From Allacma fusca (lineage: Eukaryota > Arthropoda > Collembola > Symphypleona > Sminthuridae), in the NCBI GenBank assembly GCA_947179485.1, contig OX359246.1, positions 29,636,001 through 29,700,000 of the forward strand: DNA of 64,000 nucleotides, given 5' to 3'. Shown here piece after piece: positions 29,727 through 55,237 of this stretch. The notes beneath the pieces were generated by a model. The model worked only from the letters and a program-made list of their open reading frames with translations, searched no databases and was not told where the DNA came from. A program made the position numbers and the translations under genes. How positions within the stretch are numbered: position 1 is the first letter of the stretch; each line of letters begins with the position of its first letter.

Positions 29727-30513
29727 TAGACTCGAGTATATTTTAAGATGTGATTTCTAACATCCTTTCCCTTAATTATTATTTTCAATAAATTAAAAGT
29801 GATTACAAGGAAATTATTAAGATGTAATTACATATAGAACCAAACCAATAGTTAAGATTCGCGCATCTAAAAACCATTTTGAAGGAAATTTGTTTATGTC
29901 TCACAGAACAACAGTAACATATTGGTGGAGTAAAATGAGACTACGTACATACAAAAAGTACATAACGGAATCAAGTACACAAGTGAAATGAAACTTGATA
30001 CAGAGGATTTGGAACATGCTCACAATGTCAACTATTTCCTAGAAACAAAACACACATTTTATCGACTCTACTTATCTCTACATTATAACGGCCACTTGAT
30101 GGAGTCTGTGGCTTTTCAAATTGCGCGCTCTTCTGCTTCAAGCACCAATGGATGCCAAGAGTACATATATACCATACCATAAGCAATCCTCCCCTCATCG
30201 TACGCGCTCTTCTGCTTCATTTACTTTCCACAAACACCAATAGATGGCAAGAGTACTTATATCCCATAAGCAATTCTCTCCTCATCGTGCATCGTATAAT
30301 TGTTAGCTTGGATCGGAACTCCACTCCTGCCTATCTCTACGACGCAAGCCATTCTCATAACGAATAACGAGCTCACCGAATCACACCATTCAAATCAAAC
30401 TTTCACTGAAGAATTCATCATTCCCACGGCTTCAACCTTTTCAGGTAGGTAATTTTTGTTGTTACTATTTTGACATTTGCATGCGACTATAAATATATGT
30501 AAATAAAATACTT
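29727..30513. other. Spacer with a short tandem duplication
   Basis: No gene recognised. It contains the 80-bp duplication described at 30123-30288. Confidence 0.4.
30123..30288 (+). repeat. Two-copy tandem duplication, about 80-bp unit
   Basis: CGCGCTCTTCTGCTTCA...AAGCAATCCTCCCCTCATCGT (from 30123) is followed at about 30202 by a diverged copy CGCGCTCTTCTGCTTCA...AAGCAATTCTCTCCTCATCGT. The copies differ by small indels. Confidence 0.7.
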
Positions 30514-30945
30514 GGTTGGGACCCATTGGTTTTACCAAGGGTGGAGAGTGGTTGGGACCCATTGGTTTTACCAAGGGTGGAGAGTGGTTGGGACCCATTG
30601 GTTTTACCAAGGGTGGAGAGTGGTTGGGACCCATTGGTTTTACCAAGGGTGGAGAGTGGTTGGGACCCATTGGTTTTACCAAGGGTGGAGAGTGGTTGGG
30701 ACCCATTGGTTCAACCAAAGGCGAGTAGAGTTGACCTGTTGGTTTAACCACAGGTGGAAAGTTGTTGCGACCTATTGGTTACATAACAGGCGGAGAGTTG
30801 GATAGACCCATTGGTTTAACCAAGGGTAGAGAGTGGTTTGGAGCCATTGGTTCAACTAACAACGAGTTGAGTTAACCTGTTGGTTTAACCACAGGTGGAA
30901 AGTAGTTGTGACATATTGGTTAAACAACAGATGTAAAGTTGGAGA
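30514..30945 (+). repeat. 36-bp minisatellite
   Basis: About six near-perfect 36-bp units (start GGTTGGGACCCATTGG, contain TTTTACCAAGGGTGGAGAGT) from 30514 to about 30729, followed by about six decayed units to about 30945. Because 36 is a multiple of 3, all three forward frames and one reverse frame stay open and give 12-residue protein repeats (for example GPIGFTKGGEWL). Equal openness in several frames argues against coding. Confidence 0.9.
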
Positions 30946-37766: not shown

Positions 37767-40700
37767 CAAAAAGTTATGAAAACTATTAGTTTTTAAGATA
37801 AAAATAAAATATTTCCTTCTACAGAATATAAACGAGAGCATCATGTGCCATCTACATAAAACTAATAAAACCATAAAAATGCGCTTACAAACGTAATGAA
37901 ATCGTTTTAGCAGCAGAAAACTGTTTGTCTTTTTGAGAAGTTGCTTTAAAGGTTACGCGACCAGGTCTTCGTGCATGTTCAGGTCTGTCCAGAATCCCTA
38001 AAAAGCAACCTCTATGCTTTCACCCCTACCTCAAAAAGTGACTTTCCTGTATATCTCCTGAACAACTTAATGTAATTCTACTATCAAAAGCTTAAGGTTA
38101 ATGGGAGATCATTGCGAATCTTCATGAATTTTGGTGTTCCTGTAACACTTGAAGTCGTTGATAAATAAACAAAAATTGGAGCAAATGGCGAATTTAAGTT
38201 GCATGGTGACCGTTCATTTAACATTGGAAAATATTTGAGGTTGTTCCACTAATCAGAAATGAGGTTTTATTAAGAGACGCTTTTCAAAACTAGGATGTTG
38301 CTATAAAATTTTGGTGATCTTTAAGGGATCACCCCATAAATATTAGTTGTATCCTTAATTTGGTTTACAGGTCACTTATGTACTTACATGACAAGTTGAG
38401 CATACCAGTTCATTTTTTTCTTTTATTTGTGCAAAAAATGCTTTGATTTCTATTTTTAAGAATTTTTTGCACGAATACAAGAAAACAATGAATCGCTATT
38501 CTTTTTCAACATTTCTTTTTTGTTTACTTGGGCAGGTTTAAATTATAGTAACCAAGTGTTAATACAACTTAGTCGTGTCCAAGTCAACAAAAAATAATGC
38601 CATTGTAGAGTACAAAAAAAGAAAAAAGGGAGAATGGAAATTCCGCAATGCTAAATAATTTACCAAATCTTGCATCTTGGAATTTGAATGGTTATTTTGA
38701 ATAAATTAACACTTTTTGTGTACGCCTTTGAATATTTAGTACAGTGTGACTAATATGATCAGTGATTAACTTTTAACCGAAACGATTCAATTCTAACTTT
38801 GGGAAGAGAGTAAGTAGAGCATAAGATTAACTTTGGGGTTCATTAACAATTAACACATGTCCGACATTAATTAAAATGATGTAGCTATCATGCACTGATA
38901 GCGCTCTGGATGGTTCAAAAAGTTGTAGCCCTTTCGTGATTGAAAATCAAGTCAATAATCAATTTTTGTAAGTTTGAATGCTTCACGTCCACGTAAACAA
39001 AATCTCCAAAAATTAGCCAACAATAACGTGCATGTACTTCACTGGCAAATATCATTATTGTCTGAAATCTTCCTTCTAATCTAAGCAATAGTTTTACAAT
39101 TCCAAAAGGTCGAAATAAATTAATAGATAAAAAGCTTAAAAAGTGAAGTTGCTTTTGCGCCAAAGCTTGTTTTCAAAAGTTGAAAACAAGTTTTCTGGTA
39201 GATGCTGTCAGAATAAATCCCAATGTTTATTGAAAATGACGAAAACTCTTGAAATGACGAAAACCAATGCCACGATATTATTGTGGCTGATGCAAAAATA
39301 GCTGTGAAAAAGTGTGTCCGTCAAGTTAGCCGGAGTTAGCATACAAACCATTGGAATACATACATATGAGCCGGAGTAACCATAATCAGCAGACTTTGAC
39401 TGAGAAGTACGATTTTGTATAAAGACTGGTAATGACTACCGGCACATAAATAAACACAGCGTCTCTCCCTAAGACCCAAACCTTTTAAGCACATAGTTAC
39501 TTTCATAGTACCTATGGCACACGACACAACCATGTTTTCAACTCAATATTTACTACAAGTAGTAAGCCCTGTACGCAATGTACCTGTACCGAAAAGGAAC
39601 CAAAAAAATTGTCCCTGGGTACAGGTACCTGGCAATACCTGAAACTGAATCCGGATCCTTGTTTTGAGATTATAAGTATTTGTTGTAACTCAGGGGTGGA
39701 TTTAAGGGGTGGCCCATCTTGGCCGGCCTGGGTAAAAAATTTAGGGCCAGGGTAAACAAATTTTGACCAAAGCCCTCAGATTGCAATCGTGTGTTTTTAG
39801 TATCTTTGAATCAAAATTTCTGATTTTAAAAAATCACATGAGAAATTTCCGCACTTTTTAAAAACTCTAAATTCAAGGGAAGCACGAAGCTTACATTGCA
39901 AACTTTTAAAAAATTGCTGACTTGCGTGTGCCGGCAGTCAAATCGGGAAACATCTGAAAGGGGTAGTGAAGGCGTTGTACACATATTACCATGCACGCAT
40001 GAATTGCATGCGTATACATACAGCCAGTAGGGAATGTCGATTCAAAATGCCCTCGTACATATGCCTGCCAACTAGAGGTAGGATTAGGGCTTTTAAGTAA
40101 CAATTGAATCCGCTGTGAAACCTTTATTTGCGTATTTTTTTTGTATTTATATACAACATCCATCCCACTCATCACATTCAATAAACGTGCACTCAAGAAG
40201 CAAAACTTCTTATTGGCTCTGAAAATTTGTGAAGATAAACTATCAAGCTCAGGAGATCGTTTCAAAATGTTGAATGTGTGAGTATTTAATACAGTAAACG
40301 ATTATTTAGCTTTAGCATGAATATATGTACATGAAAGCAATGCTTGAACTCTGCGCAACGTCAAATATGCATGCAACCTATCTGTCCTAAATTCTATTGT
40401 AGTAGAATTATCGGGTCATTTTTAATTTCCGATCCGCCCAAAACCCGAACTGAAAAATAAATGCATGCCCAAGCCCGATCTTAACCCGGTTTCATTGATT
40501 TATTGCAGCCCAAACCCGGTCGTAGCCCGAAGTAAGTTCGTATTTGCAGCCCGAACCAGGCCAAAAACCCGGCCGGGTCGGGTTCGGGCCGGCCCAATTC
40601 AAAAAGCCCGCTTCCGGGCCCATCTCTACAGTGCCAAGCTGAATATGCTCAAAATGCCCGCCAACGTGCCATAGTTTCGGTAATATTGGCACATTGGGAA

Positions 40701-41822
40701 AATGCCCTGAACTCGTACAATTTTCTGCTGACCTGATTTATTTACCTTTGTGCTAAAACCGTCGAGTAATCGTTTCTAGTTATAAAGATTTGAGCGGGGT
40801 AGTGTGCAGTAAAAGTAGCGTCTAAAACGTCTGAAAAAGGTAACCGAAAATTTGAACTGAATATGCTCAACATGTCGTATGTGCCCAAAATGTAGGTATT
40901 TTCCCAAAGTTGAATGCCCAATGGCATATATGCTCATGGCATATTGATGCCCAATATGCCATGACATTTTCAAATCGACAATCCCTGACAGCCAGCATGC
41001 AAACATTGCTTGTTCGCTGTAGTGAATGAGGAGAGGAGATTCCTGCCAACGTTATACACGGGCAGCGCCTTTGTTATTAACAGAAAGCCCTATGACGCTC
41101 CACTCCTTGGGACCGTACCCCTGCTCAACTACTCCCGATTTCTTTTTTAATAATTTGGGTTCGGTTGGTTATAACCCGATAGTATTTGGCGTCAATATTA
41201 CTCACACTATTTAAAATGCATGCATGTACATTGTATGTGCATATTTCAAAACAATGTTTCACCATGGGAATGACTGTTTTGAAAAAAACAAACCCAACGG
41301 TAATTTCATAAATGAGTTCAACATACTACAATAGTTACGTAAGAAGAGATGGCCGACCTGGCGCCGCCTTACGCGACACCCTTGCATAATCGCAATTTTT
41401 TGTAGTGCAGTATTTGCGATTCATTACACTGATGATTTTTGACATTTTCATTCCCAATACGACTCCATCCTAAAAGAAGTTACTATAGTATTGTCCTGTA
41501 CTTAATACTCCAGTTACACCTGTTGTTTGTCAAGTTAATTAGCTCAACTTCGTTTAGAACAAAAGCATTAACATATCTACAAAAACAAAAGTTAAACAAG
41601 CTAATATGAAATAAAGGCAGGCTGTACGCGTGAAAAAAGTGTCACAAGAAATGATAAATATGTGGGGTGCTTTCCTGATTTCCCTGGTGAATATTATGTC
41701 CGTCCAGACAGGTACAGAAAGGTTCAAACTATGTTTATTGAAAAAACGGTAAGTGATTTTCAATATCCCTGTTCGCAAAAATAATTTACTTACAACACTT
41801 CAAATCCCCACCAAATAAGGTC
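37767..41822. other. Non-coding region with nested word-rich element remnants
   Basis: No believable gene. Three patches have private words: GTACCTGTACC / TACAGGTACC at about 39560-39650, followed by a CAGGGGTGGA start at about 39693; AACCCG/CCCGAAC words at about 40430-40625, ending GGGCCCATCTCTA; and TGCCC/GGCAT words at about 40640-40985, starting CAGTGCCAAG. They resemble ends of hAT-like elements but I could not pair ends or find target duplications. The open frame at 39906-40265 has no recognisable character. Confidence 0.4.
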
Positions 41823-42284
41823 ATGCAATCAAAACACCCCTTTTTGCTAAACAAATTTTCCCTAAAACTCCCCAACAAATTTGACAATTTCTGCCAGAAA
41901 GCAAAAAGAATTTTTAAATCCCTGCTCGTAAAAAAATCCCATCCGTTTGATATTTCCGTGCCAATAATATTTTTCCTCGGCAAGATTCCTATCTTCCAAC
42001 GAAAATCCGACCCCTCATTTGAGGTACTTGGACATCGGGTTAAGGTATTTCATACACTCGTACCTGTACATGATGCAATCGCTTCCAATAAGTATTCTTG
42101 TGTACACGTTCTGACATCCAAGGTTGTACCAAACTTTGCGGGTAGAAATTGCGTGTACCCACAAAGTACAAAACAAATTTGGATTTGTGTGTACCCACAA
42201 AGTACAAAACAAATTTGGATTTGTGTGAACCCACAAAGTACAAAACAAATTTGGATTTGTGTGTACCCACAAAGTAGTGAATAA
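41823..42284 (+). other. Open stretch of unknown status ending in a 36-bp repeat
   Basis: A 153-codon open frame (+) covers unique sequence (41823-42130) and then runs through the tandem repeat at 42153-42277. The opposite strand is open over much of the same DNA, and the C-terminal part is just the repeat translated. No family was recognised. More likely non-coding element sequence than a gene. Confidence 0.2.
42153..42277 (+). repeat. 36-bp tandem repeat, about 3.5 units
   Basis: Units GTACCCACAAAGTACAAAAC + AAATTTGGATTTGTGT recur every 36 bp at 42155, 42191, 42227 (GAACCC variant) and partially at 42263. Frames on both strands remain open because the period is divisible by 3. Confidence 0.9.
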
Positions 42285-42819
42285 TTAAGCTTCAAAATTT
42301 ATGCAACCACTTTGTACCTGAATCAGTATTTATGGGGGCGCTAGCTCGTCAAAACACCAATGTTTGTAGTAACACAAATCAGATTGCCGTAAGTGTCTAA
42401 ACCCCTGGGTTTAACATTTTGTAGAACCTTCTACAACTGACCGGATGCATGAGAGATACAAATAAACATTATTTAATAATTCCGCGTGTGTAGTGACTTT
42501 TATTAAAATCATTTATTTCCACGGTAAGTTCCACTAACTCTGTGGAAATTGCGATTATGTGTTTGCTTCACATGCCGATCTTTCTCTTTCTGCTTTCCCA
42601 CTACTGACTTCCGTTTTCGCTGTACACCCAACTTCCTTCTCTCCTTCCTAGTCAACGTGTTTGAATCGGTAGGTTCTTCCTACAATATTTGAACAAAGTA
42701 ATTTTGAATGAAGTTATTTTTTAAACAAATAGCACAGTCATTGCAACCCAATATATGTACAAGAAGCTGGTTTTGGTTATTAGTTACAACATTTTTAGTA
42801 TTTCGTTCAAACAAAAGGT

Positions 42820-45800
42820 TTATTCAACAGTTTTTATAACCTGCACAATTGGATGGTCTTCATCAACGGGTTCCATATCTCCAGGATTTGCAGTTTTAGC
42901 GACACCAACACTGTGTCTCACCTCGTCCGGATCTATTTGCCAAGGCCTCAAAGGCGTAGGTGCAGCACTACTGAAATCCCAGTCAGCTGCGTGCTTACCC
43001 CATAAAACCTCGTTATGGATTTCCCCATCGTACATTGGCTACAACAAATTACAAATTCAATTAATTAAATTATGTGTGCTATATATATTATTGAGACACA
43101 CTGTATATTATCATATACGTGCTTACAACTTTATATGAGTCCAGAAAATGTGAACACTGTATTGCTCCTACATGTATTGTTTTGCAAAGGGTACAAGCGG
43201 TCTTCGGATCCATACTACAAGCACTGTCATTAGCAAAAACAAATAATTATTGTACTGAACATATATTTCGTTTCACATAGTTGTAATAAATCAGCTGTAG
43301 GGATTTTATTAAACAGCTAGTGATGCCGTGATGTACTCGGTGAGATTAACGCTGAAGTTCAGCAACATCCAGAGTGATGAAATGACAACTAGCTAATAAG
43401 CAAATACACAATATACAGTTCTAAAGAAAGCGGACACAGCAAAGCTCTCGCTTCAGCAACAGTCAAAGGGTATTTTAATTCACGGTCAAAATAAATAACT
43501 GCACGAAAGCAGAAATGAAAAACGGCGTAATTTTGGATTGGAGAGTGAGGTGTGAAAGTCTTCACGAGCAAGAGAGAAGTGAAGATTGTGAGTTAGAAAT
43601 TGAAACAGGTAAGCAGGTAAGCAAAAATTCATGTTAGGATGAACGAATTCTTATTAATAGTAAAAGAGCTTCATTCTGGAACAGGAGCAAAGGCAAAGGT
43701 CCAGGTGCTTGGAAACAAGCAAACACAAAATATTATATTAATTACATGAACTCCAAAATCAGTTATGTCAATTAGAAACTTAAATATAATCGTGTACATG
43801 TCATTCTTACAGCACTGAATTATACGACTAACATCAAGTACCCAATTTATCGCCAGCAAACGACTGTAAACATATTAAAAGAAACTAAATTGTGAGTATT
43901 TCGTACACACTACAGATAAGCAATACTATAAAACGATTCAACTAAGTCATGTACAATACTAAAAGCTTTATTACACAAGCTACTCTACAAACATGATCAG
44001 AAATATGCATGATCGTTTATGTACGCCAAACCAATATTATGGAAACACTGGTTATACTATGGTTATGCTAATCGTACCATAGGAACTACCAATTATCATT
44101 TTGGAAACTATAGTAAGGTCTAAAAAAAACTAAATTTCAAACCCAAATACACATCACCAAATATCAATTTCCAGCAAACAAATTAATTCAATACTAATTC
44201 AACAATATCAGTTTTCAACATTCACTACTAAACAAACTAACGAATTCAACATCCAAAAGACAACATTAAAAAAGCCCAATATTATGCAAACATCGGCAAG
44301 CACATTTCTCTAACATTCGCGATTTAATGTGTACCAGCATGTACTTACAGCCACATAATCCTTAAATCGACCGGGTAAATACTTCATTAGCGGTTCCATG
44401 CCGTCATATCTAACAGGTTGTGCATTGTGCAATATTTGAAGTACGAAATGCCCCCCTACGTTTAGCGTATAACCTACAAGAGAATAAACACTTTGAAATA
44501 AATTAATTCGGAGTGGAATATCCGCAATCCTCTTTCTATGGGTATCCTCGGAGACCATAGTGCCATGCGTCAACTCAAAAAACAATACTGGCGAAGGAAT
44601 TTCCGGCTGTTTATAGTTTACAGACTTGTCCTTGTGACAACTTCGACATACAGAACCTAGAAACGTTGTTGTTGCGTTTAATCTGTGTAGAATAAGTTCA
44701 ATGCTGGAACCACATAAGGCAGTTATAGGAAAACTGCAAATCAAATACATTTAATTATCGTATTTCATAATTCGACATTTGTTCTAATAGTCGATGTAGT
44801 GACCGTATATCAATTATTATTCATGTTAAAAGTGTAGTAATAATTAATACACCTTCTGAATGTCTCGTACACACATGTACTACAAGAAGTCACTTGCAAA
44901 TAGTCTTCAAACAGCCCATGGAGAGCAGCGAGTCCGTATTCCTCCTCACCATTCCACATGTCATTCAAAGCAGGTTTACTTTGTAATTCCCGATCAGTCA
45001 GAGATAACCATTTCTGTTTTGCAAGATTTTGAAATCCCTCTCTCAAACACTGAAGGGCATCAACAACTAATATCCTGCTTGCTGAACCATTGGAAATAAA
45101 CTTATGAAAGTATGTGTCAGTCTCGTACAGATAAAGCGTCATAGTCATGATATTATCGAAAGAACAAGTGTTGACAAAAAGAAATGCACCATCATCTCGA
45201 GCTCTGGAACCCCAACTGTAACAAAAGCAACCGGTTTCAAACTCCAGAATACGTAAGAATACAATTAATATTAACTCACGGAATAAATGGCAAAGTGTCG
45301 AAAATCGATGCCACCAATTTAACTTTAGGTACATGTTTGCCTTTCTTCTTCCAGGATTCTGTGAGAACACATGAGCTTTCCTGTAAGGGAAGGAAAGACA
45401 CGTTCGCAGGATTTTCGCAAGTCTGGTATGTGGACACTGTCGGGGTTACATTCTTCCTACGTCTTCCGGGTTTTCGTTGCTTATTTATTCCCTCAAGTTG
45501 TCCTAAGTAACGAGTGTAATCCGCCAGGAACCTTGTGCACCGCCCTGTAAACCAATATGTCTTTACTTCTTGATCAACTCATTTCGGACAACCAGTAATG
45601 TGATATTACAGAAAATACAACACATGATACCTTCAATAACATTTTTGGCTTCATGAACGTATCTGGCTAATGTCAGTTTACCATCCTTACACTGTTCGTG
45701 CCTTTTTACAACCTTGTTCCAATTTTCGACAGGTTCTTGTGTGTCGTTATGGCGGTGATCTCCACGCAATTCGAACATAATATGAGTGAGCATTGGTGTA

Positions 45801-48621
45801 TACGGTAACATGTGCGTGCACAAGTAAGTGACAAAGCTTTCATTGTAAAACCTGTTTGGCGATAAAAAACATTCTACTTGGTCTTGTGCCAGTGAACTTA
45901 TAACGATAGTCCGCAAATCGTGATAGAATCGTCCAAACGATGTTCCACGACATAACGTAGTATCCGAAAGATGTTGTACTAGATAGTTTTGATGCACTAT
46001 TTCGTATTCTGTGAAACATTAGTACGTATAGTTTTTAAATGCAGACACACATGATGTTGGGTCGATTTGTAATACAAATTATCAAGTAAAGATGTTACCA
46101 AGTTGTAGCAATTTTGGTGGAGCGGATTGAAGAGTCGATAGCACCTGTGTAACACTGGGAACATCGGTTGGTGATAGACATAGAACGAATATCTTGCGAA
46201 CGTAGTAGTTAGCCGTGTGGATATCGTAAGAATACTGATAACGGTTAAACAACTTCTTTATGATTTTCACACGCTCGTCTTCCTTTTCTACGTAACATTC
46301 TTCCAGTTTAGCGACAATAGCTTGGATTATGTGCATACGGCAAACATGGTGATTTATTTCTGAAGGTTTCCGGACCTTGAAAAGTTCTTCCCAACATAGG
46401 TTAAGATATGAGGATGTACTATGACCATTCCAGAACGTGTGAATAACTGCTGCTATGGTGGCTAAACTAAAGTCTGTTTCTATGCGTTTCATCCACCCAG
46501 ATGGTCCAGTTTTGAAGTACGAGTCGACCCTGCAAGTGATCCGTAGGAAGTAAATAATAAAGATGAAAAACATTAGTAATAAATTGTTACAATCTTACGT
46601 AGTACGAAATACGGCCAAACCCTGGCCGATGGAGTCTGTATTCTGCGAATTACTTAAGAATTCACAAACTGCTATCGAGTTTGATTTGTCAGCTGGGTTG
46701 GCAATGACCAATGCATACATCAATATTTGACTATCCCCCAAATTCTCAGTAAGATGTCGAACAACTCCTCCGGTTGCATCCAAGTGAATAACGGTGTGTT
46801 GTTTGCGTTGCTTAAATGTCTTTAAAACATCCATTTGTCTTGTGGTCATCATAACAACGTGCAAAGGTTTAATGCTATACCCAATGACAAACTCAGCTAA
46901 ACTTCTGTCCGTATAAATCCGTCGATGCAGGTCCACAGTGGGCAGACTATCAGTATCTCGTTCTTTAAGCATCTGAAAGCAAATGCATATGTATTTATTT
47001 AATCGAAATAATGGAATGCATGTACGCTTTACCTCATGCCTTGCTTGTCGCAGTACTTGTCCGCGCGGAACTGCTGTAAAATTGCCGCATCTTTGAGCTA
47101 AATCATCAGCTTTGTTTGCCATTTCCGTTGCCACTGCATCTGCATGTCTATAACGCAAATGTTCCTTAAATGCTGCTCGATTCTCGGCTTGCAATTTATT
47201 GCTGCAAACTCTTAGCGGCTGGTGGTTAATAGTGCCCGTACAGCTACGAATATATCAACTGATTTACAACTTACCTTCAACCTACATTATAAATTCAAAT
47301 TTGCTTATACACTTACACGACTTTAAAGAGTACTTTTGATTTGTCGGCATTAAAATTCCCAGTGATCCGTATAGTCTCCCAGCAGTGTGGTTTATGTGTA
47401 CAGTATCCATCTAAAACGTACAAGTGGCCTCTTTTCCCGGTGGAAACATCCTGCCGTTTGCAGTTAGGGACACAGCATGGATTGACCTTGTTAAATTTCC
47501 TCCTTAATATCACGTCCAGCCAACCTGGACGCATACCAAATGTTATTTTGCCATGGCGATTTCGCGTCTCAACATAGCTGTCCCAAACCTTTTTCTTGAC
47601 AGTAAACTGGAACGTTTTCGGGATAAGCACTGTTGTGTTGCTAGTCTCGACTTGTACTGAGTCACCGTGGTCTATGAAACAGTCTGCAGTTAGATGTCAA
47701 AATGTTATCAATTGAAAGAAACCAGAATCATTACCTGTATATTTGGTGCCGAAATCATCAAAACCTGCGTTCTCGTCTTCAACAACCTGTGCAATATCCA
47801 TCTGGTCATTATCTGTTTGAATCTCATGTATGTTTCTGTTAGGCGTAGAAGGCGGTTTTTCACATACGAACTCTAAACCCAAGTCTTTGTGCGTGGAAGT
47901 AAGTTTGTCGCCGCTTTCGACATTTTCTGTCCTTGTACTTGCCAGGGCAGCCTGCAAACCCATATCTGCAAACAGAAACATTTATGTGGAATCGATTTCC
48001 TAAAAATATAGAAGTTACGTGTTACATGATGTTGACCTTTCAGTGGTCTGCGGCTGAGATTAAAGTCTCCCGCAGATGTCCAGAAACTTGAATGTATTTC
48101 CCGATTGTTGCTTGTTTGGCTTACATCTGAGACTGGAGACGGAATATTTATAGCCAACGTGCGTGCGTTTTGTTCTTGGCCATCGTCGGATTTAACTGAG
48201 TGATTATCGTCGTCTTGGTCCATTGTAATTGAGCTGATATTTGCCCTTACACCTACACAACCATGTCAAGGCAACACAGTTCACTTATTTATACCGATCT
48301 CGAAACAAATTGCGGAAATCGTCGACACTTACCACGAAACGTTTGTAAAAATATGGAGGGATAACGGATCCACGAATTTCCTTTACACCTGGGGCATTCG
48401 TAGTTGCCGTCTTTTGCAACTGTCTTCCTATTTACTCGAATGCACAAACAATGGTACCATTCCTTACACTTTCCACATTCCACCATGTCCCCAGACGAAG
48501 ATCCTTGACAAATGCAGTAAATGGATCTGCTGGCGTTGGGCGTAGAACATGCGGGAGGTGGATCCAAGCACACTACGGGAGTACCGCGTAAACCCAAAAA
48601 TGCAGCCTGCAAACAAAACAT
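42820..48621 (-). CDS. PHD finger-DDE transposase-like-USP-like peptidase protein (12 exons)
   Basis: Exons on the minus strand: 48621-48333, 48252-48037, 47965-47735, 47683-47317, 47243-47033, 46972-46599, 46529-46099, 46008-45631, 45544-45280, 45215-44853, 44733-44349, 43038-42820. All borders are GT-AG, all phases agree, and the joined frame is about 1,242 residues. Order: a PHD finger at 36-79 (C36xC38, C49xxC52, H57xxC60, C76xxC79); an acidic linker; a Cys/His-rich region at about 310-400 reminiscent of WRKY/GCM1-FLYWCH fingers; a DDE-type core with HLDATGG (D503), IETDFSLA (D582) and EPVENWNKVVKRH (E801), followed by a basic segment; then a USP/C19-like peptidase with Cys box VNTCSFDNI (C938), a CxxC pair near 1070, and His box YTLNVGGHFVL (H1136) with VRYDG (D1151). 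The true start is uncertain: the first exon could also begin at an acceptor at 48606. It could be an autonomous transposon gene or a domesticated one. The transposase assignment rests on motifs, not alignment. Confidence 0.72.
43039..44348 (-). other. Last intron of the PHD-DDE-peptidase gene
   Basis: About 1.3 kb between exons 11 and 12, far longer than the other introns of this gene (about 50-100 bp). AT-rich, with no coding sequence or repeat recognised. Its size suggests later insertions. Confidence 0.5.
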
Positions 48622-48660
48622 ACGAAATGTATCTCACTCTTTTCTAAAGAACAATAGCTG

Positions 48661-51600
48661 AAATTTGATTCTAATGTTAGATTTGATTCCGGCCAGCCGG
48701 GTTAGAAATAAAACTGGGGGTGCCCTTATTTTTGCGTGGTTTTAAAACTTCAAAGATTTTTAAAAAATTCCGATTTGTCCAAATTCAAATAAAATTGATG
48801 AAGGTAGAAGTAATCGACCACGGAGAATTTGATTCTGAGGTCAGAATTGATTCCGGCCAACCGGGTTAGAAATAAAACTGGGGGTGCCCTTATTTTCGCG
48901 GGGTTTTAAAATTTCAAAGATTTTTAAAAAATTCGGATTTGTCCAAATTCAAATAAAATTGATGAAGGCAGAAGAAATTGACCACGGAGAATTTGATTCT
49001 GAGGTCAGAATTGATTCCGGCCAACCGGGTTAGAAATAAAACTGGGGGTGCCCTTATTTTCGCGTGGTTTTAAATTTTCAAAGATTTTTAAAAAATTCGG
49101 ATTCGTCCAAATTCAAATAAAATTGATGAAGGTAGAAGTAATCGTCCACGGAGAATTTGATTCTAATGTCAGATTTGAATCCGGCCAGCCGAGTTAGAAA
49201 TATAACTGGGGGTGCCCTTATTTTCGCGTGGTTTTAAATTTTCAAAGATTTTTAAAAAATTCGGATTTGTCCAAATTCAAATAAAATTGATGAAGGTAGA
49301 AGTAATCGATCACGGAGAATTTGATTCTAATGTCAGATTTGAATCCGGCCAGCCGGGTTAGAAATAAAACTGGGGGTGCCCTTATTTTTGCGTGGTTTTA
49401 AAACTTCAAAGATTTTTAAAAAATTCGGATTTGTCCAAATTCAAATAAAATTGATGAAGGTAGAAGTAATCGACCACGGAGAATTTGATTCTGAGGTCAG
49501 AATTGATTCCGGCCAACCGGGTTAGAAATAAAACTGGGGGTGCCCTTATTTTTGCGTGGTTTTAAAACTTCAAAGATTTTTAAAAAATTCGGATTTGTCC
49601 AAATTCAAATAAAATTGATGAAGGTAGAAGTAATCGACCACGGAGAATTTGATTGTAATGTCAGAATTGATTCCGGCCAGCCGGGTTAGAAATAAAACTG
49701 GGGGTGCCCTTATTTTTGCGTGGTTTTAAAACTTCAAAGATTTTTAAAAAATTCGGATTTGTCCAAATTCAAATAAAATTGATGAAGGTAGAAGTAATCG
49801 TCCACGGAGAATTTGATTCTAATGTCAGATTTGAATCCGGCCAGCCGAGTTAGAAATATAACTGGGGGTGCCCTTATTTTCGCGTGGTTTTAAAATTTCA
49901 AAGATTTTTAAAAAATTCGGATTTGTCCAAATTCAAATAAATATGATGAAGGTAGAAGTAATCGACCACGGAGAATTTGATTCTAATGTCAGATTTGAAT
50001 CCGGCCAGCCGAGTTAGAAATATAACTGGGGGTGCCCTTATTTTCGCCTGGTTTTAAATTTTCAAAGATTTTTAAAAAATTCGGATTTGTCCAAATTCAA
50101 ATAAAATTGATGAAGGCAGAGGAAATGGACCACGGAGAATTTGATTCTGAGGTCAGAATTGATTCCGGCCAACCGGGTTAGAAATAAAACTGGGGGTGCC
50201 CTTATTTTCGCCTGGTTTGAAATTTTCAAAGATTTTTAAAAAATTCGGATTTGTCCAAATTCAAATAAAATTGATGAAGGTAGAAGTAATCGACCACGGA
50301 GAATTTGATTGTAATGTCAGAATTGATTCCGGCCAGCCGGGTTAGAAATAAAACTGGGGGTGCCCTTATTTTCGCGTGGTTTTAAATTTTCAAAGATTTT
50401 TAAAAAATTCGGATTTGTCCAAATTCAAATAAAATTGATGAAGGTAGAAGTAATCGTCCACGGAGAATTTGATTCTAATGTCAGATTTGAATCCGGCCAG
50501 CCGAGTTAGAAATATAACTGGGGGTGCCCTTATTTTCGCGTGGTTTTAAAATTTCAAAGATTTTTAAAAAATTCGGATTTGTCCAAATTCAAATAAATAT
50601 GATGAAGGTAGAAGTAATCGACCACGGAGAATTTGATTCTAATGTCAGATTTGAATCCGGCCAGCCGAGTTAGAAATATAACTGGGGGTGCCCTTATTTT
50701 CGCCTGGTTTTAAATTTTCAAAGATTTTTAAAAAATTCGGATTTGTCCAAATTCAAATAAAATTGATGAAGGCAGAGGAAATGGACCACGGAGAATTTGA
50801 TTCTGAGGTCAGAATTGATTCCGGCCAACCGGGTTAGAAATAAAACTGGGGGTGCCCTTATTTTCGCCTGGTTTGAAATTTTCAAAGATTTTTAAAAAAT
50901 TCGGATTTGTCCAAATTCAAATAAAATTGATGAAGGTAGAAGTAATCGACCACGGAGAATTTGATTGTAATGTCAGAATTGATTCCGGCCAGCCGGGTTA
51001 GAAATAAAACTGGGGGTGCCCTTATTTTCGCGTGGTTTTAAATTTTCAAAGATTTTTAAAAAATTCGGATTTGTCCAAATTCAAATAAAATTGATGAAGG
51101 TAGAAGTAATCGTCCACGGAGAATTTGATTCTGAGGTCAGAATTGATTCCGGCCAACCGGGTTAGAAATAAAACTGGGGGTGCCCTTATTTTTGCGTGGT
51201 TTTAAAACTTCAAAGATTTTTAAAAAATTCGGATTTGTCCAAATTCAAATAAAATTGATGAAGGTAGAAGTAATCGACCACGGAGAATTTGATTGTAATG
51301 TCAGAATTGATTCCGGCCAGCCGGGTTAGAAATAAAACTGGGGGTGCCCTTATTTTCGCGTGGTTTTAAATTTTCAAAGATTTTTAAAAAATTCGGATTT
51401 GTCCAAATTCAAATAAAATTGATGAAGGTAGAAGTAATCGTCCACGGAGAATTTGATTCTAATGTCAGATTTGAATCCGGCCAGCCGAGTTAGAAATATA
51501 ACTGGGGGTGCCCTTATTTTCGCGTGGTTTTAAAATTTCAAAGATTTTTAAAAAATTCGGATTTGTCCAAATTCAAATAAATATGATGAAGGTAGAAGTA

Positions 51601-54025
51601 ATCGACCACGGAGAATTTGATTCTAATGTCAGATTTGAATCCGGCCAGCCGAGTTAGAAATATAACTGGGGGTGCCCTTATTTTCGCCTGGTTTTAAATT
51701 TTCAAAGATTTTTAAAAAATTCGGATTTGTCCAAATTCAAATAAAATTGATGAAGGCAGAGGAAATGGACCACGGAGAATTTGATTCTGAGGTCAGAATT
51801 GATTCCGGCCAACCGGGTTAGAAATAAAACTGGGGGTGCCCTTATTTTCGCCTGGTTTGAAATTTTCAAAGATTTTTAAAAAATTCGGATTTGTCCAAAT
51901 TCAAATAAAATTGATGAAGGTAGAAGTAATCGACCACGGAGAATTTGATTGTAATGTCAGAATTGATTCCGGCCAGCCGGGTTAGAAATAAAACTGGGGG
52001 TGCCCTTATTTTCGCGTGGTTTTAAATTTTCAAAGATTTTTAAAAAATTCGGATTTGTCCAAATTCAAATAAAATTGATGAAGGTAGAAGTAATCGTCCA
52101 CGGAGAATTTGATTCTAATGTCAGATTTGAATCCGGCCAGCCGAGTTAGAAATATAACTGGGGGTGCCCTTATTTTCGCGTGGTTTTAAAATTTCAAAGA
52201 TTTTTAAAAAATTCGGATTTGTCCAAATTCAAATAAATATGATGAAGGTAGAAGTAATCGACCACGGAGAATTTGATTCTAATGTCAGATTTGAATCCGG
52301 CCAGCCGAGTTAGAAATATAACTGGGGGTGCCCTTATTTTCGCCTGGTTTTAAATTTTCAAAGATTTTTAAAAAATTCGGATTTGTCCAAATTCAAATAA
52401 AATTGATGAAGGCAGAGGAAATGGACCACGGAGAATTTGATTCTGAGGTCAGAATTGATTCCGGCCAACCGGGTTAGAAATAAAACTGGGGGTGCCCTTA
52501 TTTTCGCCTGGTTTGAAATTTTCAAAGATTTTTAAAAAATTCGGATTTGTCCAAATTCAAATAAAATTGATGAAGGCAGAAGAAATTGACCACGGAGAAT
52601 TTGATTCTGAGGTCAGAATTGATTCCGGCCAACCGGGTTAGAAATAAAACTGGGGGTGCCCTTATTTTCGCGTGGTTTTAAATTTTCAAAGATTTTTAAA
52701 AAATTCGGATTTGTCCAAATTCAAATAAAATTGATGAAGGTAGAAGTAATCGACCACGGAGAATTTGATTCTAATGTCAGATTTGAATCCGGCCAGCCGA
52801 GTTAGAAATATAACTGGGGGTGCCCTTATTTTCGCGTGGTTTTAAATTTTCAAAGATTTTTAAAGAATTCGGATTTGTCCAAATTCAAATAAAATTGATG
52901 AAGGTAGAAGTAATCGATCACGGAGAATTTGATTCTAATGTTAGATTTGAATCCGGCCAGCCGGGTTAGAAATAAAACAGGGGGTGCCCTTATGTTTGCG
53001 TGGTTTTAAAACTTCAAAGATTTTTAAAAAATTCCGATTTGTCCAAATTCAAATAAAATTGATGAAGGCAGAGGAAATGGACCACGGAGAATTTGATTCT
53101 GAGGTCAGAATTGATTCCGGCCAACCGGGTTAGAAATAAAACTGGGGGTGCCCTTATTTTCGCGGGGTTTTAAAATTTCAAAGATTTTTAAAAAATTCGG
53201 ATTTGTCCAAATTCAAATAAAATTGATGAAGGCAGAAGAAATTGACCACGGAGAATTTGATTCTGAGGTCAGAATTGATTCCGGCCAACCGGGTTAGAAA
53301 TAAAACTGGGGGTGCCCTTATTTTCGCGTGGTTTTAAATTTTCAAAGATTTTTAAAAAATTCGGATTCGTCCAAATTCAAATAAAATTGATGAAGGTAGA
53401 AGTAATCGTCCACGGAGAATTTGATTCTAATGTCAGATTTGAATCCGGCCAGCCGAGTTAGAAATAAAACTGGGGGTGCCCTTATTTTCGCCTGGTTTTA
53501 AATTTTCAAAGATTTTTAAAAAATTCGGATTTGTCCAAATTTAAATAAAATTGATGAAGGTAGAAGTAATCGACCACGGAGAATTTGATTCTAATGTTAG
53601 ATTTGAATCCGGCCAGCCGGGTTAGAAATAAAACTGGGGGTGCCTTTATTTTCGCGTGGTTTTAAATTTTCAAAGATTTTTAAAAAATTCGGATTTGTCC
53701 AAATTCAAATTAAATTGATGAAGGCAGAGGAAATGGACCACGGAGAATTTGATTCTGAGGTCAGAATTGATTCCGGCCAACCGGGTTAGAAATAAAACTG
53801 GGGGTGCCCTTATTTTCGCCTGGTTTTAAATTTTCAAAGATTTTTAAAAAATTCGGATTTGTCCAAATTCAAATAAAATTGATGAAGGCAGAAGGAATTG
53901 ACCACGGAGAATTTGATTTTAAATTCAGATATGAATCCGGCCACCCGGGTTAGAAATAAATCCTGGACTTCCCTCATTTACCCCCGAGTTTAGACATTGA
54001 ATTTTTTTTAGAAACTTAAATTTGT
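48661..54025. repeat. Satellite array, 164-bp monomer with 656-bp higher-order repeat
   Basis: About 32 head-to-tail monomers of exactly 164 bp; for example CGGAGAATTT falls at 48821, 48985, 49149, 49313. Landmarks include TTAGAAATAAAACTGGGGGTG, a run TTTTTAAAAAATTCGGATT, and AAATTCAAATAAAATTGATG. Variant monomers recur in fixed order: GATTGTAATG occurs at 49651, 50307 and 50963, then 51291 and 51947, and the AAATATGATG variant at 49941, 50597, 51581 and 52237. Spacings are 656 bp (4 x 164) with phase jumps of 328 and 984. The last monomer (from about 53900) is clearly diverged, as expected at an array edge. No reading frame stays open. Confidence 0.95.
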
Positions 54026-55237
54026 GGAAGTGCTAACTATATTCATGATTACAGAAAGGATCGACCATGAAATGAGAATATATTAAAAGCAAAAAATTAT
54101 GCACAAGTTGTTTTTTTCGCGAAAGGTTTTTGAATCCGAAGATTAGTTGCTTATGACATTTAGTTCCGCCCTGGACTAGGAAAATATTTACTTGATGTGG
54201 ATATGGACCTAGTTGAAAATGTTTGGTTGCCCATGACATGTGATTACGCCCTTGACTAGAAAACAATTTGACGTGGCCTGCATATGCACGTAGCGTTTAT
54301 TGTGTCTAAAGCCGCTCCTAACATCTTTTTCAAGACGTGGAGACACATCATCATTAAAATTAGTGTAAACATTAAAGTAAACTCACATCGTAGGAATTCC
54401 CCAGGTGTTATCGAGCAACAAATGTAGTTCTAGTTGCTAGCAGTTCGAATTATTAATAATTACCTAATTACAAAAAGTCAACACAATGAAACAACAAGTC
54501 GGAACGGCTAAAGGATTACTTTGTTCAAATCTTCGAGGGGTTTTCCAAGTTACTCTGTACGCGTGTTTTAGTGCATAGGGAAACTCATGGGTATGTATTT
54601 GAATGATGTATATGATTAACTCAGGCTGGAATTTAACTCGGGCTAACTTGACTGACGGTGAAAAAGTTGGTTTGCAATGAATACTGAATTGAGCAATTTT
54701 GAGATGTAAGTTGGAAATTATTAATACTATTGAAAGAGTACTCAATAAAAAATTCTTTTGTTGCTTTTCTTCATTTCAAGAGTTTTCATCGTTTTCAATA
54801 AACTATTGGGATAAATTTACCCTGGAATAAAAAAGATCTTTTAACAGGAAGCTTTGAATTTTTTGGAATCAAAGACCTATTTAATCAGACATTTTGATTT
54901 CAGTGGTAATAATATTTTTTTGAAAATGGAACTACTAAATTTGAAATCAAAGGAATTCTTAGTATCCATGGCTTATTTACTAAATTTTGCCGGTGCACTC
55001 GGTATTAAATTAAACGAGGACCAGCTGTACAATACTTGTGAAGGCAGAGCTTCAAGTCAGGCTTAATAATTATGCCCTTTTCATGTTGTGATTTTTTTAT
55101 TTTTTGAACAAACCAGAAAGCAAGAAAATGTTGTTAGATGCAAAAAGGCTGAAAAATACAATTAAAAATCATGTATACATTAAATTTTAAAAAAATATTT
55201 TGTCCCGGAATGACGTTTCGAAAAAGTGGGAACCCTA
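54026..55237. other. Region between satellite and right element end
   Basis: AT-rich. An open frame at 54854-55066 (+, 70 codons, with LNLKSKEFLVSMAYLLNFAG) has some protein-like character but no family was recognised and no splice partners were found. The right terminal motif with GTCCCGGAATGACG lies at 55201-55237. Confidence 0.3.

Follow-up and report, generated by a model that had tools for sequence, protein, structure and literature searches.

Does the long, intron-rich gene on the minus strand of a 64,000-nucleotide stretch of Allacma fusca DNA (contig OX359246.1, positions 29,636,001 to 29,700,000; hereafter the window) belong to its host or to a transposon? An earlier, sequence-only reading had drawn it as an intact gene of twelve exons whose product of about 1,240 residues combines a PHD finger, a transposase-like D-D-E core and a peptidase module resembling ubiquitin-specific proteases (USPs), and had named two options, an unusual transposon-encoded protein or a domesticated one. 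Comparison of genomic copies, common ends and 9-bp duplications bears out the former. Gene 1, as it is called in the following, is regarded here as the gene by which a Mutator-related DNA transposon of Rehavkus type, mobile until recently, encodes its transposase, with putative roles for its PHD finger and USP-like module, a reading to which we assign a probability of roughly 0.68.

Copies, boundaries and mobility of the element

Gene 1 sits inside a multi-copy element of 15,345 bp, which also spans the adjacent 164-bp tandem array (Table 1). In the 393 Mb of genome searched for copies, exon 7 of gene 1 gave 72 matches, 12 of which, the window included, are 100% identical over 144 amino acids (aa). 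Ten other copies (c1-c7 and c9-c11), each fetched with about 10 kb on either side of exon 7, were compared with the window. All ten share the ends seen at window positions 39314 and 54658 while their flanks differ copy by copy, so that the search for further copies with shared termini proposed by the sequence-only reading was successful. Direct repeats of 9 bp flank 10 of the 11 copies (window included), the exception being c3. Aligned over the approximately 9.35 kb to the right of the array, nine of the ten are separated from the window copy by 1-7 substitutions each and by no gap at all; c1 is more distant, with 30 substitutions and 5 gap columns. The 11-exon coding sequence of gene 1 is free of internal stops in all 11 near-identical copies and ends at the same stop in all except c1, which is also the single copy in which gene 2, a second and smaller gene of the element, is not intact. 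Because of these near-identical copies with common ends, 10 of 11 of them between 9-bp repeats, the element family is a recently mobile DNA transposon and not a domesticated gene; it may still be able to jump today. Relatives in collections of viral contigs and of other genome contigs could not be confirmed.

The element was filed as Rehavkus since its 9-bp target-site duplication (TSD), PHD finger and minisatellite match the outline of this group given by Dupeyron et al. (2019; PMC6446971), in which a 9-bp TSD, terminal inverted repeats (TIRs) of 26-400 bp, one open reading frame (ORF), a PHD finger and a minisatellite are listed. According to the same outline, Rehavkus occurs in Arthropoda and Annelida and forms the outgroup of Mutator-like elements (MULEs). 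Here, too, the host is an arthropod and the minisatellite is located near one end of the element.

Gene models

Joined as previously drawn, the twelve minus-strand exons encode 1242 aa without internal stop, and all 11 introns are of GT-AG type with matching phases; hence, the reported consistency of the splice phases was correct, as was the product length for this joined model. The last exon, however, has to be removed from the gene. Exon 11 runs past the formerly assumed donor (GTAAGT) to a stop at 44310, which is concluded from the conservation of the read-through peptide ([VI]S..[WF]Y) in 9/9 distant rows (L029, L030, L032-L037 and L039), where its codons do not read GTAAGT. Outside the window, only the four close rows L040-L043 have the letters GTAAGT at this position, and they end gene 1 at the same stop position within one residue. 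As modelled from these comparisons, gene 1 is therefore a gene of 11 exons encoding 1182 aa. An additional first exon further upstream is likely, because distant copies have no usable Met in front of the PHD finger: among the four that were read as far as the PHD exon and through it, three are devoid of an in-frame Met before the finger, and the sole Met of the fourth (L032) falls inside a conserved segment. Moreover, the ATG at 48621 overlaps with an acceptor-like TTTGCAG. By eye, no such exon was found in window positions 53900-54658.

Exons 7-11 align with the four diverged copies L040, L041, L042 and L043 without gaps or stops. Ratios of non-synonymous to synonymous substitution rates (dN/dS), obtained by simple counting with Jukes-Cantor correction, are 0.147, 0.114, 0.131 and 0.106, respectively, for these exons together (with dS of the core above 1 and thus unreliable in L041 and L043), and 0.140, 0.207, 0.184 and 0.208 for module exons 10-11. 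Judged by these counts, gene 1 is under purifying selection. In all four comparisons, the dS values themselves are lower for exons 10-11 than for the core exons 7 and 8 (0.14 versus 0.36 in L040), a pattern that an exchange of 3' parts between copies would leave.

Gene 2 consists of three exons downstream of gene 1, with a product of 151 aa, and probably encodes a small accessory protein. Two-gene Mutator elements exist as a parallel for such an accessory gene. Exon by exon, its protein gave 97 match rows in the genome, many of them in diverged copies; its splice sites are conserved in L041 and L042, whereas exon 2 is interrupted by stops in L040. Its dN/dS amounts to 0.294, 0.153 and 0.169 in L040, L041 and L042, the three copies covered by this comparison out of the four used for gene 1. 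Since gene 1 reads to 44310 and the three-exon gene is conserved in diverged copies, the former exon 12 (43038-42820) is assigned to gene 2 as its exon 2, and its membership in gene 1 was rejected.

Table 1 Features of the element in the window (positions are those of the 64,000-nucleotide stretch)
Feature	Position	Strand	Basis or remark
Whole transposon, 15,345 bp	39314..54658	-	both ends recur in ten further copies with differing flanks
TSD, 9 bp, left (gene orientation)	54659..54667	.	identical 9 letters at 39305-39313
TSD, 9 bp, right	39305..39313	.	matches left 9-bp repeat
Left TIR, ~25 bp, imperfect	54634..54658	.	inner 19 bp: 18/19 match; outer 6: 3/6
Right TIR, ~25 bp, imperfect	39314..39338	.	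pairs with left end
164-bp tandem array, ~32 units, inside element	48662..53960	.	tandem-repeat analysis and copy comparison
Gene 1 exon 1 as first drawn, PHD finger	48333..48621	-	real start probably in upstream exon
Gene 1 exon 2	48037..48252	-	exon join
Gene 1 exon 3	47735..47965	-	exon join
Gene 1 exon 4, Cys/His-rich region	47317..47683	-	exon join; similar exon in L029-L032
Gene 1 exon 5	47033..47243	-	exon join
Gene 1 exon 6, first catalytic-type Asp (D503)	46599..46972	-	exon join, core alignment
Gene 1 exon 7, second Asp (D582) and HVCR.H	46099..46529	-	exon join, copies, core alignment
Gene 1 exon 8, Glu (E801)	45631..46008	-	exon join, core alignment
Gene 1 exon 9, linker	45280..45544	-	exon join, selection comparison
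Gene 1 exon 10, Cys box (C937) and first zinc knuckle	44853..45215	-	exon join, module alignment
Gene 1 exon 11 to stop, second zinc knuckle, H1136, D1151, conserved C-terminus	44310..44733	-	module alignment, read-through peptide
Gene 2 exon 1	43127..43213	-	genome matches, selection, splice sites
Gene 2 exon 2	42841..43038	-	genome matches, selection, splice sites
Gene 2 exon 3, basic tail and stop	42509..42679	-	genome matches, selection, splice sites

PHD finger and D-D-E core

The sequence motifs quoted in the sequence-only reading are present in the joined protein, and its PHD finger is confirmed by Pfam (PF00628, E-value 1.4e-6, residues 36-79), beyond which only a second, weak PHD model matches the protein. 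The best PDB matches of the finger are PHF8, PHF2 and ING1, and by eye it is also recognizable in L029-L032. In the motifs YCIC and EWYH, Tyr and Trp are the putative counterparts of those in the methyl-lysine cages of PHF8, PHF2 and ING1.

The proposed D-D-E triad (D503, D582, E801) is invariant in all five rows compared (window, L029, L030, L031 and L032), and the same holds for HVCR.H between the second D and E; in this alignment (A3), exon joins are approximate (in frame for 3 of 8 tested) and only residues inside exons were used. A C..H motif at this place is a Mutator-type feature and was also seen by eye in MULE L051 of the same genome. The claim of a transposase-like core is thus upheld by its invariant residues within a mobile element, while the RNase-H fold, which the core may adopt, was not seen in Pfam, PDB or MULE comparisons. 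Ordinary MULEs, a family separate from this element, also occur in the genome, some of them present at several places with open frames of roughly 880-900 aa.

C-terminal USP-like module

The C-terminal module shows the order Cys, CxxC/H, C..C, His, Asp/Asn. It was aligned over ten rows (A5), nine of which share 21-34% identity with the window's module; this alignment and version A2 leave out L038, which has frame breaks, and replace L031 (frame break near the His) by its relative L033. The Cys, the following DN, three zinc-type Cys and the His are kept in 10/10 rows; the fourth zinc ligand is Cys in four and His in six, and the third catalytic position is occupied by Asp in eight rows and Asn in two. 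When the A5 profile was compared with 177,635 PDB sequences up to an E-value of 10, USP12 was the single match (E-value 0.28), with the module His aligned to the USP His and the first knuckle to the CxxC of USP12. All four PDB matches of the C-terminal-half profile are likewise USPs (three USP46, one USP12; best E-value 0.22). As a scale, 89 distinct PDB sequences match a USP12 stretch at an E-value of 0.001. Pfam UCH matches one of the ten rows (E-value 0.18), and the other weak single-row Pfam matches are zinc ribbons. In hhalign comparisons with five host USPs, scores of 36.1 (A2) and 35.1 (A5) were obtained, the former, like the Pfam scans, the run that included the core control and part of the Cys-box comparisons considered below, with rows containing assumed junction residues, by which the C-terminal-half alignment is unaffected. 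Column shuffling never produced a score as high as the real one in 700 trials (maxima of 25.7 in 400 for A2 and 24.9 in 300 for A5).

As no profile match is significant, the module is called USP-like instead of being placed among the USPs; from residue order and profile matches, a USP-like fold is quite probable. To this extent the claim of a peptidase-like module stands, its match values of 0.22-0.28 being its weak side. Since the module is common to near families and to families with only 24-40% identity in exon 10, it is, on this distribution, an old part of the lineage within this genome and not a recent capture. Among host genes, contig C1:74366787-74380094 contains three USP-domain matches of the same score and an even spacing of 5,919 bp, i.e. 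a tandem triplication of a USP-like gene.

Weighing of the alternatives

Several observations speak against the proposed assignment. The gene models derive from genome sequence and copy comparison alone, and Rehavkus membership was judged from published feature descriptions, not from an alignment of transposase sequences. The core has no relevant match in Pfam or PDB. The Pfam MULE model does not match this element, with 63 matches elsewhere in the genome, and no match resulted when the core was compared by hhalign with three ordinary MULEs from this genome, the three-row profile used being thin and visibly misaligned; the position of Rehavkus as a diverged outgroup of MULEs may explain this. 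A single-sequence AlphaFold model of exon 11 alone reached a pLDDT of only 29.7. Furthermore, two conserved genes are present here compared with the one ORF of the Rehavkus outline, which we take as a difference within Rehavkus because this outline is based on very few elements. The element carries one array, on the 5' side of its gene, compared with arrays in both inverted termini of Rehavkus-1_TC (PMC10218199) and a minisatellite before the 3' TIR in the outline. Finally, copy c3 (contig C9:42308001-42328000; L013, L014) has no matching 9-bp flanks. Recombination or a flank deletion is suggested by a comparison with c6, whose unique part shows 0 differences from that of c3.

The USP likeness belongs to the same list, every USP match lying at an E-value of 0.18-0.28 and thus below usual significance. 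Together with the zinc-ribbon matches, this would fit a module of the same transposon that has another zinc-containing or papain-like fold and resembles USPs by chance, all the more as the unrelated core alignment scores 30.5 against the USP profile (module 35-36), which makes the column shuffles a weak null. Yet two differently cut profiles find nothing but USPs among the PDB sequences, with His on His, and no shuffle came up to the real score, so that a chance resemblance appears improbable. Slightly less so, but still unlikely, is a USP-derived module that acts as a non-catalytic ubiquitin-binding or structural domain. The Cys-box half alone gave no profile signal (hhalign about 13 against host USPs) and two rows carry Asn at the third catalytic position, as could be expected for a domain without activity, whereas Cys and His are invariant in ten diverged rows and an Asn as third residue also occurs in active USPs. 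With regard to gene structure, the exons of gene 2 might instead form an alternative 3' end of gene 1, the former exon 12 being spliced in some transcripts: GTAAGT is retained by all four close families as well as by the window, exons 11 and 12 join in frame, and the ATG of gene 2 follows an AG by one base in the window, L041 and L042, as if joined to an upstream exon. This has a low probability in our view, as the exon 11 peptide up to the stop is conserved well beyond the families with GTAAGT and the join bypasses the conserved exon 1 of gene 2. A domesticated host gene, finally, would likewise show a long open multi-exon frame under purifying selection, but it would hardly come with near-identical copies elsewhere sharing common ends and 9-bp duplications. 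For this copy, domestication was rejected on these grounds, unless it alone were expressed as a host gene, and we consider it extremely improbable.

Proposed mechanism and significance

For the preferred Rehavkus-type transposase, the D-D-E core would excise the element and reinsert it elsewhere with a 9-bp stagger, of which the duplications are the observed trace. The PHD finger might tether the protein to histone tails and thereby favour open chromatin. The C-terminal module, as a USP-type cysteine-peptidase fold with zinc fingers, could strip ubiquitin or a similar tag, the likeliest targets being the transposase itself or proteins at the donor or target site. Such removal would protect the transposition complex by stabilizing the transposase or by clearing the site, and comparable roles have been proposed in print for other transposons (PMC2836005, PMC9741609). 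Thus, the peptidase-like module may help the element jump. The removal of a ubiquitin-like mark under the guidance of the PHD finger, suggested in the sequence-only reading, is likewise hypothetical. A more far-reaching model is put forward only tentatively, as we doubt it somewhat more than we trust it: the Rehavkus lineage would ancestrally join a PHD finger, a diverged Mutator-type DDE core, an active USP-type isopeptidase and a second accessory gene, with the peptidase editing ubiquitin-like marks on the complex or on target chromatin and being needed for jumping.

Ubiquitin-type peptidases are met repeatedly in eukaryotic transposons that are unrelated to one another (Ginger, Mutator, Helitron), where their role is a guess. 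With copies that are near-identical and look intact, sharply defined ends and a catalytic pattern that is conserved, the present family is a natural system for testing it. In addition, the little-described Rehavkus group would be richer than its published outline of PHD finger, DDE core, minisatellite and one ORF suggests. For genome annotation, the locus is a warning that a neat multi-exon gene and the satellite array beside it can be parts of a single large transposon.

Satellite array and other repeats

The 164-bp array begins about 700 bp from the left end of the element, on the 5' side of gene 1. In the other ten copies it comprises approximately 14-36 units, its length varying by apparently whole units while the remaining element is nearly identical. 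A second tandem repeat inside the element (36 bp, 3.6 copies; window 42149-42276) is located downstream of gene 2, and a nested 36/72/141-bp tandem repeat lies outside of it (window 30513-30930). Telomere-type TCAGG repeats gave no match in the genome, and TTAGG, the telomere repeat of arthropods, is frequent among the matches listed, its array at the end of contig C1 being in line with an arthropod host; one short TTAGG array (C1:7148859-7148938) lies far from the contig end and is separate from the TTAGG array that ends C1. Rfam at gathering threshold gave no match within the window.

Comparison with known systems

Among known systems, Rehavkus transposons such as Rehavkus-1_TC of Tribolium castaneum and Rehavkus-1_HR are closest. 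Rehavkus-1_TC carries a satellite unit of 164 bp in its termini (PMC10218199); the unit has the same length as here, compared by length and not by letters. At 15.3 kb, the present element is larger than Rehavkus-1_TC (9.5 kb), and its imperfect TIR of about 25 bp lies slightly below the listed 26-400 bp. A peptidase module was not met in the Rehavkus descriptions: the terms 'protease' and 'peptidase' are absent from the main text of PMC6446971 and from PMC13359780, and 'protease' and 'ubiquitin' do not occur in five further papers naming Rehavkus, with PMC10218199 covered for Rehavkus and satellite only. A USP-like module in Rehavkus is hence seemingly undescribed in print, as far as term searches of main texts reach, with Repbase outside their scope. 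With MULEs, the element shares the 9-bp TSD, the D-D-E residues and the C..H motif between the second D and E, in contrast to the missing Pfam and hhalign matches given above.

The domain combination, called striking in the sequence-only reading, is indeed present, but it is less isolated than it appeared, as the PHD finger is already listed for Rehavkus and published transposases include some that carry Ulp1, OTU or C19 peptidase domains (PMC2836005, PMC9741609). Ginger1 likewise joins a DDE transposase to a C-terminal ubiquitin/SUMO-type peptidase, and Ginger1-9_HM has both Ulp1 and PHD; its core, however, is Gypsy-integrase-like and its peptidase of Ulp1/OTU instead of USP-like type. Transposase_11 proteins of T. 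vaginalis, cited in the Ginger paper, have a Peptidase C19 (USP-class) domain, yet represent another transposase family in another host, and PHD is unmentioned for them there. Helitron VTD, in turn, belongs to a rolling-circle element and has an Asp-x-His motif unlike the residue order found here, while sharing with the present module the principle of a transposon-borne deubiquitinase proposed to protect transposition proteins.

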